From NCBI GenBank assembly GCA_028291515.1, contig JAQGHU010000063.1, positions 62,001 through 126,000 on the forward strand: a stretch of 64,000 bases of DNA, in the 5' to 3' direction. Origin of the DNA: Schlesneria sp. GTDB lineage: Bacteria > Planctomycetota > Planctomycetia > Planctomycetales > Planctomycetaceae. Below the pieces are notes generated by a model, which worked only from the letters and a program-made list of their open reading frames with translations, made no database searches and was not told where the DNA came from. Below are positions 8,271-11,458 of this stretch, one piece after another. How positions within the stretch are numbered: the first letter of the stretch is position 1; each line of letters opens with the position of its first letter. The position numbers and the translations under genes were made by a program.

Positions 8271-9701
8271 TCAACCTTCAATCGGGGGCGCGACGGGGTT
8301 CCTCGCGGGAGTCAGCCGCTCCAGGATCGGCGTCGTGGCGATCGTGGTCACCAGGGCCATCAGGACCATCATCGCGAACAGCGGCGGCGAGATCACTCCC
8401 ATATCGAGCCCGATGTTGAGCACGATCAACTCCATCAGCCCGCGCGTGTTCATCAGGATTCCGAGTGCCGCGGAGGTCCGCCAGTTCAGTCCCGTGAACC
8501 GAGCCGCTACCAAGGTGCCGCCGAACTTGCCCAGCGTGGCGACGAAAATAATCACGCCGCAGAACAGCCAGTCGATCGGTTGCGACAGCAGTCCAATCTG
8601 CGTCCGAGCCCCCGTGAAGGCGAAGAACATCGGCAGCAGCAGGATCGATACGATGTCTTCCAGCTTGTGCCGAAATGATGTCGCCAGCTCGCTGTCATGA
8701 GGGATGATCGCCCCGAGTAGAAATGCGCCGAAGATCGCATGGATCCCGATCGCTTCTGTGATCAGGGCCGAAACCAGGACGGCGATCAAGACCCACGCCG
8801 CCATCGTATTGGACAGGCGTTTTCCTTTTGTCGATTCCAACCAAGCGTGCAACCTCGGCCGAACCACCACGAACATTACCCCAATGTAGGCGGTAGCCAA
8901 CACGATGGTGACGACCGCTCCCTGCAGGTCAGATTGCGTGACTCCGACAACGAACGCCAACAGACACCAGGCCGTGACATCATCCGCCGCGGCACAGCTG
9001 AGAGCGACCACCCCCAACTCGGTCCGCTCCATTTTCATGTCGGTCAGGATTCGCGCCAGGACAGGGAAGGCCGTGATCGCCATCGCGATTCCCAAGAACA
9101 ACGCGAAGCTGGTAAATGTGACCCCCTCCGGTGCGTATCGCGAGTACGCGGCCAAAGCCAAAGCCGCCCCCAGCAGGAAGGGAACCATGATGCTGGCATG
9201 CGAGATCGCCACGGTCGTGTGGGCTCGCTGACGCAACAATTCGGAGTTCAGTTCCAGACCGACCAGGAACATGTACAGGATCACCCCGATCTGCGCCAGC
9301 ACCCCCAGCGTCGGCATGACCGTCGATGGCAGCAGAAACGTGGTGACTTCGGGGGAGATTCGCCCGAGCAGGGACGGCCCCAGCACGATTCCGGCAATCA
9401 CCTCGCCAATGACCCGCGGCTGCCCCAGCTTCTGAAATACGGTCCCGATCACCCGAGCCGTCACCATGATGGTGACGATCGCCAACAAGACCTGCGGGAG
9501 CGTCGAATGCAGATTAGCCTTCTTCGCGACCGGTACCGAGGCTCCCGCGATCGGCTCGGCAATGGTTCGCGCGAACCCCTCGCCAAACGATCGAATCAAG
9601 AAAAACACGCCGACGGCAACCGCCAGCAGGAGCAGGTAGACAATCGTCAGGTGGACAGGGTGGGGTGACTTCGAATCATCAACGGCAGACAGCGGACTCA
9701 A
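8271..9701 (-). CDS. Cation:proton antiporter, CPA2 family
   Basis: A 476-residue polytopic membrane protein. After a first transmembrane helix come FQKLGQPRVIGEVIAGIVLGPSLLG and repeated hydrophobic helices including GIHAIFGAFLLGAIIPHD and a conserved NTRGLMELI segment; these are typical of the Kef/NhaA-fold CPA2 Na+(K+)/H+ exchangers. There is no C-terminal RCK/TrkA-N domain, so it is a transport domain only. The start is a TTG at 9701 preceded by AAGGGTG; no ATG precedes the first helix. A role in pH or cation homeostasis is inferred from the family. Confidence 0.88.
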   Translation of the reverse strand: MSPLSAVDDSKSPHPVHLTIVYLLLLAVAVGVFFLIRSFGEGFARTIAEPIAGASVPVAKKANLHSTLPQVLLAIVTIMVTARVIGTVFQKLGQPRVIGEVIAGIVLGPSLLGRISPEVTTFLLPSTVMPTLGVLAQIGVILYMFLVGLELNSELLRQRAHTTVAISHASIMVPFLLGAALALAAYSRYAPEGVTFTSFALFLGIAMAITAFPVLARILTDMKMERTELGVVALSCAAADDVTAWCLLAFVVGVTQSDLQGAVVTIVLATAYIGVMFVVVRPRLHAWLESTKGKRLSNTMAAWVLIAVLVSALITEAIGIHAIFGAFLLGAIIPHDSELATSFRHKLEDIVSILLLPMFFAFTGARTQIGLLSQPIDWLFCGVIIFVATLGKFGGTLVAARFTGLNWRTSAALGILMNTRGLMELIVLNIGLDMGVISPPLFAMMVLMALVTTIATTPILERLTPARNPVAPPIEG

Positions 9702-9859
9702 TGGGCACCCTTCTGCAGCGGCAGTCTTGGCGAGCGACTTCGAAGCCGTCGCTGGAATCGTTTAGAAACGTTTAAAAGATTCTAGCCGCGACGCGGCCGA
9801 TTTCCATCGGCGGGTGGCCAAGCTTCAGCCTGGTGAGGACGCCGGTTGGGCTCTTCGAA

Positions 9860-10180
9860 TTACGTCTCACGATTATCTAGGCCTTTGATCAGGCCAGAAA
9901 GCATCCGGCTAATTTCTTCCAAGTGGCCCTTGAGGTCGACGTGAGTCGCATCGTCAATCAGATTTCGACGGCGCGCAATTCCAAAGAAGTGTCTTCGGTC
10001 TGGCTTTGTAAAGCGGCCATTCCCTTCAGCGATATTGGCAGAGATGGAGACCGCGGCTCGATTGAGCTGATCGACAAGAAAGCCGTAGCCGCGGGTGAAT
10101 AGTTCAGTCCGCTGGCAAATGACATCTGCGAAGTCGACTGACTTCTGATAGACAACGAGCTTCTCAAAGGCGAACGCCAT
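9860..10180 (-). CDS. S23-type four-helix-bundle protein with probable internal deletion
   Basis: A 106-residue protein beginning MAFAFEKLVVYQKSVDFAD. The block FLVDQLNRAAVSISANIAEG followed by NGRFTKPDRRHFFGIA and the C-terminal EEISRMLSGLIKGLDNRE are hallmarks of the S23/Avd-like four-helix-bundle family. Family members usually carry a further stretch of about 15 residues (a GSVxECxPLLELA-type segment) after FFGIAR. Here FFGIA is followed directly by RRRNLIDD, so most of one helix appears to be missing in frame. The function of solitary members is unknown; relatives serve as accessory proteins of diversity-generating retroelements. A hairpin repeat and tRNA-Pro lie just upstream. Confidence 0.8.
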   Translation of the reverse strand: MAFAFEKLVVYQKSVDFADVICQRTELFTRGYGFLVDQLNRAAVSISANIAEGNGRFTKPDRRHFFGIARRRNLIDDATHVDLKGHLEEISRMLSGLIKGLDNRET

Positions 10181-10197
10181 TTGGTGCTCATAAAAAA

Positions 10198-10281
10198 AGA
10201 GAAGGAGAGTGGAAAGTAGAGAGTAGACCGAGGAGAGCGGGTTAGGCCTTCATCTTGTCTACTTTCTCCGCTCTCCTCTCT
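10198..10281. repeat. Purine-rich inverted repeat upstream of the S23 gene
   Basis: The arm at 10198-10220 (AGAGAAGGAGAGTGGAAAGT...) is imperfectly inverted at 10258-10281. The intervening bases repeat GAGAG and GTAGA words with a short irregular period. It occupies the whole gap between the S23 start and the tRNA-Pro terminator. It could be a leader hairpin or the end of a small mobile unit. Confidence 0.6.
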
Positions 10282-10282
10282 A

Positions 10283-10305
10283 TTTTTTCGCCTGAGGCGA
10301 AAAAA
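10283..10305. terminator. Rho-independent terminator of tRNA-Pro
   Basis: A perfect stem TTTTTTCGCC-TGA-GGCGAAAAAA lies directly 3' of tRNA-Pro on the minus strand. A-tract and T-tract on either side make it a textbook intrinsic terminator working in both directions. Confidence 0.85.
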
Positions 10306-10306
10306 T

Positions 10307-10380
10307 CGGGATGACAGGATTCGAACCTGCGACTTCCTGGTCCCAAACCAGGCGCTCTAGCCAAGCTGAGCTACATCCCG
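10307..10380 (-). tRNA. tRNA-Pro (anticodon TGG)
   Basis: A 74-nt cloverleaf on the minus strand. The acceptor stem CGGGATG pairs with CATCCCG, the D-arm has AGCTCAGCTTGGCTAGAGC, the anticodon stem CCTGG/CCAGG holds the loop TTTGGGA (anticodon TGG), and the T-arm contains GGTTCGAATCC. The 3' CCA is not encoded. An intrinsic terminator follows immediately. Confidence 0.96.
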
Positions 10381-10456
10381 CTCGTGTGGGCGACAGTCTA
10401 GGAGGAGTGTCGCACTTCGTCAACAGCTTCGGCAAAAGTCTTCTTGCCCGAGAAGA

Positions 10457-10480
10457 GACGCGTTCCACGTGGAACGCGTC
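10457..10480. other. parS: parS-like centromere site
   Basis: A 24-bp perfect palindrome whose centre is GTTCCACGTGGAAC. This matches the widely conserved chromosomal parS core GTTNCACGTGNAAC at every fixed position. It lies 57 bases beyond the parB stop codon, between parB and tRNA-Pro. ParB binds such sites and spreads from them to organise the origin region. The match is direct; binding is inferred. Confidence 0.85.
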
Positions 10481-10537
10481 GTTTGGGTAAGATTGAGCCG
10501 AGACAATCAATACTCCATTTACTCCACAAACACTGGG

Positions 10538-11458
10538 TCAGGCCGCTCGGTGCAACTGCCCGACGATCCGTTCGAAGTCATCCGTCGACTGGAAGTCGAT
10601 GATGATCTTTCCCTTGTCCTTGGCGGACAGCTTGATTTCCACGGCCGCTCCCAGCCAGTCTCGCAATTGATCTCGCAGGCTGAGGACATGGGGGGTGAGT
10701 TCGACGACGGCAGTTTCCGACTTTGGCTTCTTCCCCTTCATGGGCAGGACATCGCCGGATTCGGTCAGCAGTTGACGGACCGCTTCTTCGGTCTTGCGAA
10801 CCGAGAGGTGTTCCTTCTGGATTCGCTGGCACATCGCGACCTGCTGGTCGTGATCCTTCAGCGACAACAACGACTTGGCGTGACCGCCCGAGATCTTGTC
10901 GGAGAGCAGATCGCTCTTCACCGCTTCGGGCAGTTCCAGCAGCCGCAGCATGTTGCTGACCGTCGACCGATCAAGGCTCAGCCGGCGTGACAGGTCTTCG
11001 ATCGAACACTGGAACCGGTTGACGTAGTCCTGGAAGGCAGTCGCCTTTTCGAGGACGTTCAGGTCCTGACGTTTCAGGTTTTCTTCGAGGGCGACTTCGC
11101 TGACCTGCTGGTCCGTCAGTTCGAGAACGCGGCAGGGAATCTCCTGCAGACCGGCCTTCTTGGCGGCGATCAGGCGGCGTTCACCAGCGATCAACTGGTA
11201 TCCGCCCCCGGCTGTCCGGACGAGAATCGGCTGCAACACGCCATGCTGGCGAATGCTGTCGACCAGTTCATTCAGGGCGGTCTGGTCGAATTCTTGCCGA
11301 GGCTGGAACGGATTGCGATCAATCAGGTCGACGTGAATCACAGACTGGTCGCCAGCGGAGACCCCGTCCGTATCGTTCATCGCCCCTGTGCCCATCAACG
11401 CGTTCAGTCCGCGGCCCAGTCGTCGCCGTGACGGTTCCTGGATACCAGAGTCATCCAT
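10538..11458 (-). CDS. parB: Chromosome-partitioning protein ParB
   Basis: A 306-residue DNA-binding CTPase-type ParB/Spo0J protein for chromosome segregation. The start at 11458 has AAGGAAGAG upstream and gives the family N-terminus with RRRLGRGLNALMG. IHVDLIDRNPFQPRQEF opens the N-terminal domain, and the GERR motif sits at residues 92-95 (LIAGERRLIAAKKAG). A helix-turn-helix follows at about 150-175 (LSRRLSLDRSTVSNMLRLLE), and the C-terminus is a basic dimerisation region. No parA partner lies in the window, so the usual parAB pair is split. A parS-like palindrome lies just beyond the 3' end. Confidence 0.94.
   Translation of the reverse strand: MDDSGIQEPSRRRLGRGLNALMGTGAMNDTDGVSAGDQSVIHVDLIDRNPFQPRQEFDQTALNELVDSIRQHGVLQPILVRTAGGGYQLIAGERRLIAAKKAGLQEIPCRVLELTDQQVSEVALEENLKRQDLNVLEKATAFQDYVNRFQCSIEDLSRRLSLDRSTVSNMLRLLELPEAVKSDLLSDKISGGHAKSLLSLKDHDQQVAMCQRIQKEHLSVRKTEEAVRQLLTESGDVLPMKGKKPKSETAVVELTPHVLSLRDQLRDWLGAAVEIKLSAKDKGKIIIDFQSTDDFERIVGQLHRAA

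Follow-up and report, generated by a model that had tools for sequence, protein, structure and literature searches.

Results

The window analyzed here is the whole 64,000-nt stretch of Schlesneria sp. DNA, part of contig C91. On its reverse strand lie, one after another, a tRNA-Pro(TGG) gene, a series of hairpin-forming segments and a gene for an S23-type four-helix-bundle protein, the sole family-supported open reading frame (ORF) between the tRNA and the next gene (Table 1). The discriminator base at 10306 is at once the last base of the tRNA and the first base of the palindrome that we call H1.

Table 1. Parts of the S23 unit behind tRNA-Pro(TGG), in 5′ to 3′ order along the reverse strand (window positions)
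Feature	Position	Strand	Basis
tRNA-Pro(TGG), host RNA gene	10306..10380	(-)	ARAGORN; Rfam RF00005, 68.8 bits
H1, 25-nt palindrome at the tRNA 3′ end, ATTTTTTCGCC-TCA-GGCGAAAAAAT	10282..10306	(-)	sequence
P, first part of the purine left arm, GAGGAGAGCGG	10268..10278	(-)	inverted-repeat search; family swap test with P′
Q, second part of the purine left arm, AGAAAGTAGAC	10257..10267	(-)	inverted-repeat search
P′, proximal pyrimidine right arm, CCGCTCTCCTC	10230..10240	(-)	inverted-repeat search
Q′, distal pyrimidine right arm, 7-nt period, TCTACTCTCTACTTTCCACTCTCC	10204..10227	(-)	inverted-repeat search; sequence
S23 / four-helix-bundle gene	9860..10180	(-)	106 aa, ATG start; profile matches
Junction of the 42-nt in-frame deletion	9973..9974	(-)	DNA alignment with L157

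Hairpins between the tRNA and the S23 gene

An earlier note on this DNA had described a purine-rich inverted repeat upstream of the gene, and this is confirmed at about 10200–10281. A search of 10150–10320 returned perfect 11-nt arms (10230–10240/10268–10278) and 16-nt arms of 81% (10205–10220/10258–10273), all of them 5′ of the S23 ORF; inspection by eye revealed no matching arm 3′ of it. Folded as RNA of the tRNA strand, H1 and the repeat together are far more stable than expected (z = −5.6), none of 200 shuffles being equally stable. A search of the genome for the same flanking repeat yielded 11 further matches at E ≤ 1, the weakest at 0.38, and two of the 11 are a single place matched on each strand.

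The same note had taken the palindrome next to the repeat for a tRNA terminator. Its polarity is wrong for that role: along the tRNA strand, H1 has a T-run on its 5′ side and an A-run on its 3′ side, with no T-run after it. We therefore discarded H1 as an intrinsic terminator and count the palindrome at 10282–10306 as a regular part of the element. Nor does the repeat correspond to a known RNA: within 9600–10700 the tRNA alone scores above its Rfam gathering threshold, and miRNA-like matches fall far below theirs.

The S23 gene and its deletion

Both family models recognize the window protein well above their curated cut-offs (PF05635, 23S_rRNA_IVP, 67.4 bits against 33.8; TIGR02436, 64.5 bits against 24). 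The PF05635 match is split into two stretches, the better of which stops at residue 70, where the earlier note had placed the gap. The full-length ortholog L013/L157 from genome G012 is 120 aa long, is 90% identical to the window protein and reaches 99.3 bits on PF05635. Relative to it, the 106-aa window protein has an in-frame gap of exactly 14 aa (42 nt) that begins after FFGIAR and ends before RRNLID, close to the loss of about 15 residues after FFGIAR proposed in the earlier note. The deletion ends lie in short similar stretches, which is consistent with the slippage between short repeats proposed there but does not prove it. The finding that the note had named as refuting its view, close relatives that share the short form at this locus, is not borne out: in G012 the S23 gene at this tRNA has the long form.

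An AlphaFold2 model of the window protein (20 sequences, pLDDT 73.7) predicts four helices, at residues 2–25, 33–52, 59–73 and 77–105; the missing residues fall around helix 3, which is short in the model. Comparison with the G012 ortholog gives a dN/dS of 0.053 at a dS of 1.09. Amino-acid change is no faster on the window branch than on the other (two changes against four, with five ambiguous and L166 left out). The short form may thus be recent, tolerated or functional. The solved structure nearest in sequence to the full-length ortholog is 2gsc (XCC0516; E = 1.4e-11). As a candidate defence gene, S23 was set aside: the best PADLOC match is at E = 0.058 for the window protein, there is none for the ortholog, and nothing is significant.

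The same locus in congeners

In G012, the nearest relative, the same arrangement stands at tRNA-Pro(TGG) with the 120-aa S23; there the left arm is one 7-nt unit longer than in the window. Because the two loci align from the tRNA through S23 into an antiporter-like gene, the insertion predates their split. The copy in the window has thus probably been resident, by inheritance, for longer than the two lineages have been apart, with helix 3 shortened. A look for an empty site at this tRNA in close relatives, as the earlier note had suggested, finds it element-free in nine of the ten other readable genomes of the genus (G001, G002, G003 and G005–G010), G012 being the occupied one; the G011 contig breaks off at the tRNA, the search of G004 returned no match, and G013 and G014 lay outside the searched set. 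At several of the empty sites, a simple GC hairpin and T-run are seen by eye in place of the element (G001 is readable for 45 nt). The genes downstream of tRNA-Pro(TGG) differ, so the right boundary of the unit is not readable from congeners.

A family of S23 units at the 3′ ends of tRNA and tmRNA genes

The window unit belongs to a family with a fixed order of parts: tRNA or tmRNA 3′ end, H1 at the discriminator base, a purine left arm, two pyrimidine right arms, and S23. The family emerged when GTDB species genomes were scanned by pattern with the class-A alignment, the best 80 of 187 matches being kept. Seventy-four of these 80 loci are labelled Planctomycetota or a taxon within it, and four have no such label. 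The remaining two (L225, L231) are window-type S23 loci in metagenome-assembled genomes labelled Gemmatimonadetes and Actinomycetes, where the labels reflect either transfer or binning error.

Among the 73 loci with at least 400 nt of upstream sequence, 47 have an intact tRNA or tmRNA gene in the nearest 400 nt in the orientation of S23, and none has one in the opposite orientation; downstream of S23, a tRNA of any kind lies within 400 nt at 1 of 74 testable loci. H1 was detected in 74 of the 77 related loci analyzed out of the 80. Its start falls within 1 nt of the tRNA end given by ARAGORN in 37 of 47 cases, at −5 to +2 in nine others and at 155 in one. The sequence of H1 is variable while its pairing is kept, the pairing itself being part of the H1 search. 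Host RNAs of the family comprise Pro, Met, Ala and Arg tRNAs and tmRNA.

Sorting the sequence upstream of H1 by short patterns, and so with some chance matches included, gives 47 intact RNA genes, 12 tRNA 3′ fragments, nine degenerate T-loop-like 3′ ends and six loci in no class (n = 74). Two of the 12 fragments (L195, L197) look degenerate by eye; of the six unclassed loci, five, again by eye, end in CCCCG(A) or CTCCA, like tRNA-Pro or tmRNA, and one follows another S23 copy. A degenerate tRNA-Pro-like 3′ end, about AAAAAGTTCAAnnGGTGTCCTGTCGCCCCGA, recurs at unrelated loci, downstream of S23 in L158, L182 and L223 and upstream of H1 in L169, L192, L199 and others.

The right end of the unit is less sharply marked. 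A clean right end defined by a motif of the type AAAAAGTTCAAnnGGTGTC..CCCCGA was rejected as a general rule, since a pattern search located the motif beyond S23 in 7 of 80 loci and it stands upstream of H1 elsewhere. The 3′ end of the host RNA is copied downstream of S23 (at most 2 mismatches in 13 nt) in 5 of the 69 loci searched (out of 74), compared with 0.9% of shuffled flanks; the copies in L177 and L193, among these five, do not resemble tRNA ends. The best downstream match in the window has 3 mismatches, a level met in 7.8% of shuffled flanks.

S23 is under purifying selection: dN/dS was finite in 15 of 17 pairs, ranging from 0.017 to 0.26, with dS above 1 in 7 of the 15 and two pairs saturated. 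These values and the tree below drew on 76 of the 80 proteins, a filter on length and letters having removed L166, L177, L193 and L215.

Pairing and periodicity of the arms

After H1, the arms follow in the order P, Q, spacer, P′, GG, Q′, as parsed in 70 of 74 loci. The spacer measures 40–56 nt in 40 of the 70 and is shorter in the Schlesneria tRNA-Pro loci. Because registers differ between loci, we swapped arms between loci instead of counting pairs column by column. Own partners outperformed swapped ones for both P:P′ (0 of 5,000 permutations as good; 69 of 70 loci above the middle) and Q:Q′ (0 of 5,000; 58 of 70). The arm boundaries had themselves been set so that each locus pairs with itself, a choice that tilts the P test towards own partners. 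The rival pairings also lean a little to their own partners (P:Q′ in 48 and Q:P′ in 41 of 70 loci above the middle). Identity at a lag of 7 nt is 0.44 and 0.50 in the family arms, the highest of any lag tested; all others except 14 are below 0.40.

The interleaved order P-Q-P′-Q′, together with two pairings that both beat swaps, would suit a strict pseudoknot, yet the best nested folds of five sequences pair the left arm mostly with the distal right arm (less clearly in L166). A strict pseudoknot was accordingly not adopted, and a switch of the left arm between the two right arms is just as likely. The arms may form either structure, or may act as DNA. Arm length is about five heptads in many loci, and the solved S23 entries 2gsc and 2rld (PDB) have five chains each; one might speculate that there is one S23 subunit per heptad.

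Heptad arms around other S23 genes

Arms of this kind extend beyond tRNA tails. At other Planctomycetota S23 loci, inverted 5′ and 3′ arms enclose the ORF, and own arms beat all 33 swaps in 23 of 34 loci; the 34 come from 43, of which eight had no ORF by pattern and one had a short flank. The flanks of 14 of the 43 had been seen before the test (11 usable, 9 positive), and the 29 new loci gave 14 positives among 23 usable. Arms scoring at least 16 occur in 23 of 34 S23 loci, compared with 2 of 589 random intervals. Averaged over arms that pass the score and length limits (23 in Planctomycetota, 8 on plasmids), lag-7 identity is 0.60 in the 23 Planctomycetota arms, with 0.59 at lag 14 and 0.27–0.36 at other lags, and 0.66 in the eight plasmid arms. 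At 11 plasmid S23 loci, 10 from cyanobacteria and one from Azospirillum, own arms beat all swaps in nine, L363 being weak; these 11 of 32 plasmid records were picked before their flanks were seen. The heptad sequence itself differs from locus to locus in these operon and plasmid elements.

On cyanobacterial plasmids, heptad-arm S23 genes sit between cas genes (cas6-S23-cas4 in L358 and L362; cas10-S23-cmr3 in L360). At five planctomycete loci from different genera (L009, L027, L029, L031, L037), S23 adjoins genes that by eye from the sequence resemble EutN-type shell-protein genes.

Host-RNA changes, copies and reverse transcriptases

On the tree of 76 S23 proteins (120 columns, 26 open forks), 46 of them labelled by host RNA, the host changes 25 times, against 27.4 with shuffled labels and a least possible number of 8; 22 of 200 label shuffles gave as few changes as observed. 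Close pairs with different hosts include L216 (Arg) with L233 (Pro), at a starred fork, and, more weakly, L207 (Pro) with L214 (tmRNA). Hosts do not all change freely, given that Met and tmRNA are clustered on the tree (three and two changes, as low in 6 and 20 of 500 shuffles). Mutation of the anticodon could explain some of the switches between the three Pro tRNAs, but not changes among Pro, Met, Ala, Arg and tmRNA.

Window-type S23 (best match at least 63% identical) is present in 12 of 59 genomes. Matches to the arm module occur in all 12 of these and in 7 of the 47 others (Fisher p = 4.5e-8), the arm model R1 having been trained partly on the same genomes. Sorting 72 merged arm matches by short patterns places 16 next to a tRNA and 14 next to a T-loop-like motif, chance matches among the latter included; the other 42 adjoin neither. 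Many low-scoring matches among the 42 resemble other heptad repeats, and several high-scoring copies lie away from tRNAs in G022, so the preference for tRNAs is not absolute for copies without S23. Tandem and broken copies of the S23 unit occur in the family.

Two settings deserve separate mention. Dense tRNA arrays in the window genome (L111, L126 and L107; G000:C24, C109 and C92) carry H1 and arm modules without S23 behind several of their tRNAs. In L324 (G005:C129), an intact tRNA-Pro(CGG) is followed about 5 kb on by a tRNA-Pro 3′ fragment, H1, arms and S23, and a second arm module, an arrangement that resembles the insertion of an island at this tRNA gene.

The search for a reverse transcriptase, also suggested earlier, found four RVT_1 matches in the genome and none on the window contig C91. 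RVT_1 matches are present in 54 of the 59 genomes, including all 12 with window-type S23; being near-universal in this 59-genome set, their co-occurrence neither supports nor excludes a retro route, and we do not use it as evidence for one. In G003:C1 there are 15 RVT_1 matches, eight with identical score and open-frame length, which reads as a recent reverse transcriptase expansion.

Discussion

We consider it quite probable that the window holds one copy of a small S23 element, a member of a family lodged at tRNA and tmRNA 3′ ends, and that it works as outlined below. The anatomy of the unit, its position at RNA 3′ ends, the changes of host RNA on the S23 tree, the empty congener sites and purifying selection on S23 are matters of direct comparison. 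Host-RNA turnover near the shuffled level, together with element-free sites in nine of ten congeners, leads us to read the unit as mobile. The earlier suggestion of a small mobile unit with flanking short-period repeats is well supported at the level of the family, by position, host turnover and 7-nt arms, and the family behaves, as judged from its sequences, like a mobile unit that prefers tRNA 3′ ends.

The mechanism we propose is as follows. The S23 unit would be transcribed as the tail of its host tRNA. RNase Z or exonucleases may cut at the tRNA 3′ end during maturation, and RNase III may cut at the arms, as it does for rRNA intervening sequences. Maturation would free a healthy tRNA and so make the insertion harmless to the host. 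The left arm may pair alternatively with either of the two pyrimidine right arms, and the S23 protein, as an oligomeric helical bundle, may bind the heptad arms as RNA or DNA. S23 would then help the unit to reach another tRNA gene, with the machine supplied in trans. We infer joint transcription, cutting at the 3′ end and arms, S23 binding and movement in trans from work on intervening sequences and from tRNA biology.

The main rival is a tyrosine recombinase acting in trans: H1, arms and S23 would form a satellite, a passenger whose att site resembles a tRNA 3′ end and which island integrases move. tRNA and tmRNA 3′ ends are classical att sites, commonly used by genomic-island integrases, and tRNA 3′ fragments, as scored by pattern, precede H1 in 12 of 74 loci, the intact tRNA-Pro(CGG) and the fragment-led unit about 5 kb apart on one G005 contig being a case in point. 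Yet such fragments could be left by islands that do not carry the S23 unit along. Integrases are usually faithful to a single site, whereas this one family uses Pro, Met, Ala, Arg and tmRNA hosts; copies of the tRNA end on the right are rare (5 of 69), and the window unit encodes no integrase, S23 being its only family-supported ORF before the next gene. We give the satellite a modest chance of being correct. Selection, for its part, fits a quite different account, in which the hairpins serve tRNA-tail processing or transcription control and S23 is a vertically inherited host protein behind some tRNAs. Purifying selection, the S23-free arm modules behind several tRNAs of the window genome's arrays and a rate of amino-acid change that is not raised in the window lineage (2 against 4, with 5 ambiguous) speak for a host gene. 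The patchy presence of S23 (12 of 59 genomes), 25 host-RNA changes on the S23 tree, tandem and broken copies, and nine congeners lacking the element at the same tRNA speak against one, and the chance of this account is slim.

Two further possibilities involve a reverse transcriptase. S23 could be an Avd-like accessory of a diversity-generating retroelement, working with a reverse transcriptase nearby; the genome has four RVT_1 matches, and the bAvd and Avd models do match the window protein weakly (E = 0.15 and 0.0099). Both matches are far under the curated cut-offs (13 against 40 bits and 16.2 against 80), none of the four RVT_1 matches is on C91, and RVT_1 is near-universal in the set, which makes this reading very improbable. 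There is a small chance, greater than for the retroelement accessory, that the S23 unit is RNA-borne, landing on free tRNA or tmRNA 3′ ends (or on the genes) with a reverse transcriptase in trans and an oligomer that reads 7-nt units. If so, the 7-nt arms of rRNA, operon mRNA and tRNA tails would be the signature of one mechanism, and the arms would be made and renewed by templated slippage.

The preferred reading, a small mobile S23 element at RNA 3′ ends, has practical consequences. The tRNA-tail family offers dozens of comparable S23 units, mostly in one phylum and with sharp left ends; sharp left ends, empty congener sites and selected S23 genes make mobility and RNA binding testable. The family opens a new approach to S23, a small and still puzzling protein that has been met chiefly in rRNA inserts. 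The heptad-arm pattern also links the rRNA intervening sequence, insertions in operons (cas operons included) and tRNA tails, and we infer from the shared parts that the three settings host one kind of element. If the pattern holds across phyla, many genes that now bear the annotation “four helix bundle protein” could be reassigned to hairpin elements.

Comparison with known systems

Avd of diversity-generating retroelements is a four-helix-bundle relative of S23. The window protein differs from it in falling under the Avd-type family cut-offs and in having no RVT_1 match on its contig. Other heptanucleotide repeats, TAACTGA in Beggiatoaceae (PMC4679880) and GGGAATC in Xanthomonas (PMC4692102), resemble the window arms in having a 7-nt unit, lying between genes and sometimes forming inverted pairs. 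REP/RAYT palindromes (PMC3733652) resemble S23 units in being small, dispersed and possibly mobilized in trans. The terms “S23” and “four helix” are absent from the main texts of all three papers. Among the matches listed from open PMC papers, a set outside which subscription papers and most preprints lie, there were no S23 units at tRNA ends and no general heptad rule, the Coxiella burnetii paper discussed below having heptameric repeats.

Operon-nested S23 elements share with the window unit the protein family and arms of 7-nt period. Unlike the window unit, they keep the ORF inside the hairpin and lie between protein genes, and no tRNA appeared at these loci among the matches listed.

The closest likeness is to the rRNA intervening sequence (IVS), from which S23/IVP proteins have been known for decades. 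PMC4990558 calls the function and origin of such sequences unclear. It describes the IVS of C. burnetii 23S rRNA as having an S23 ORF and a 28-bp terminal stem, as being excised by RNase III, and as carrying heptameric repeats ahead of the ORF whose number is strain-variable. The window unit likewise has hairpin-forming arms, an S23/IVP ORF that reads in the sense direction of a stable RNA, and heptameric repeats just 5′ of that ORF, variable in number; ORF deletions and a sporadic distribution are also common to both, and the IVS is there called a selfish element (PMC4990558). The window unit differs in being appended to the 3′ end of tRNA-Pro(TGG) instead of lying inside 23S rRNA, in having its arms 5′ of an ORF that no terminal inverted repeats enclose, and in possessing H1 in addition to the IVS parts. 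Given its location and unenclosed ORF, we do not class it as a 23S rRNA intervening sequence. By analogy, it seems to work like one, and we read it as an IVS-like S23 element at the tail of a tRNA.
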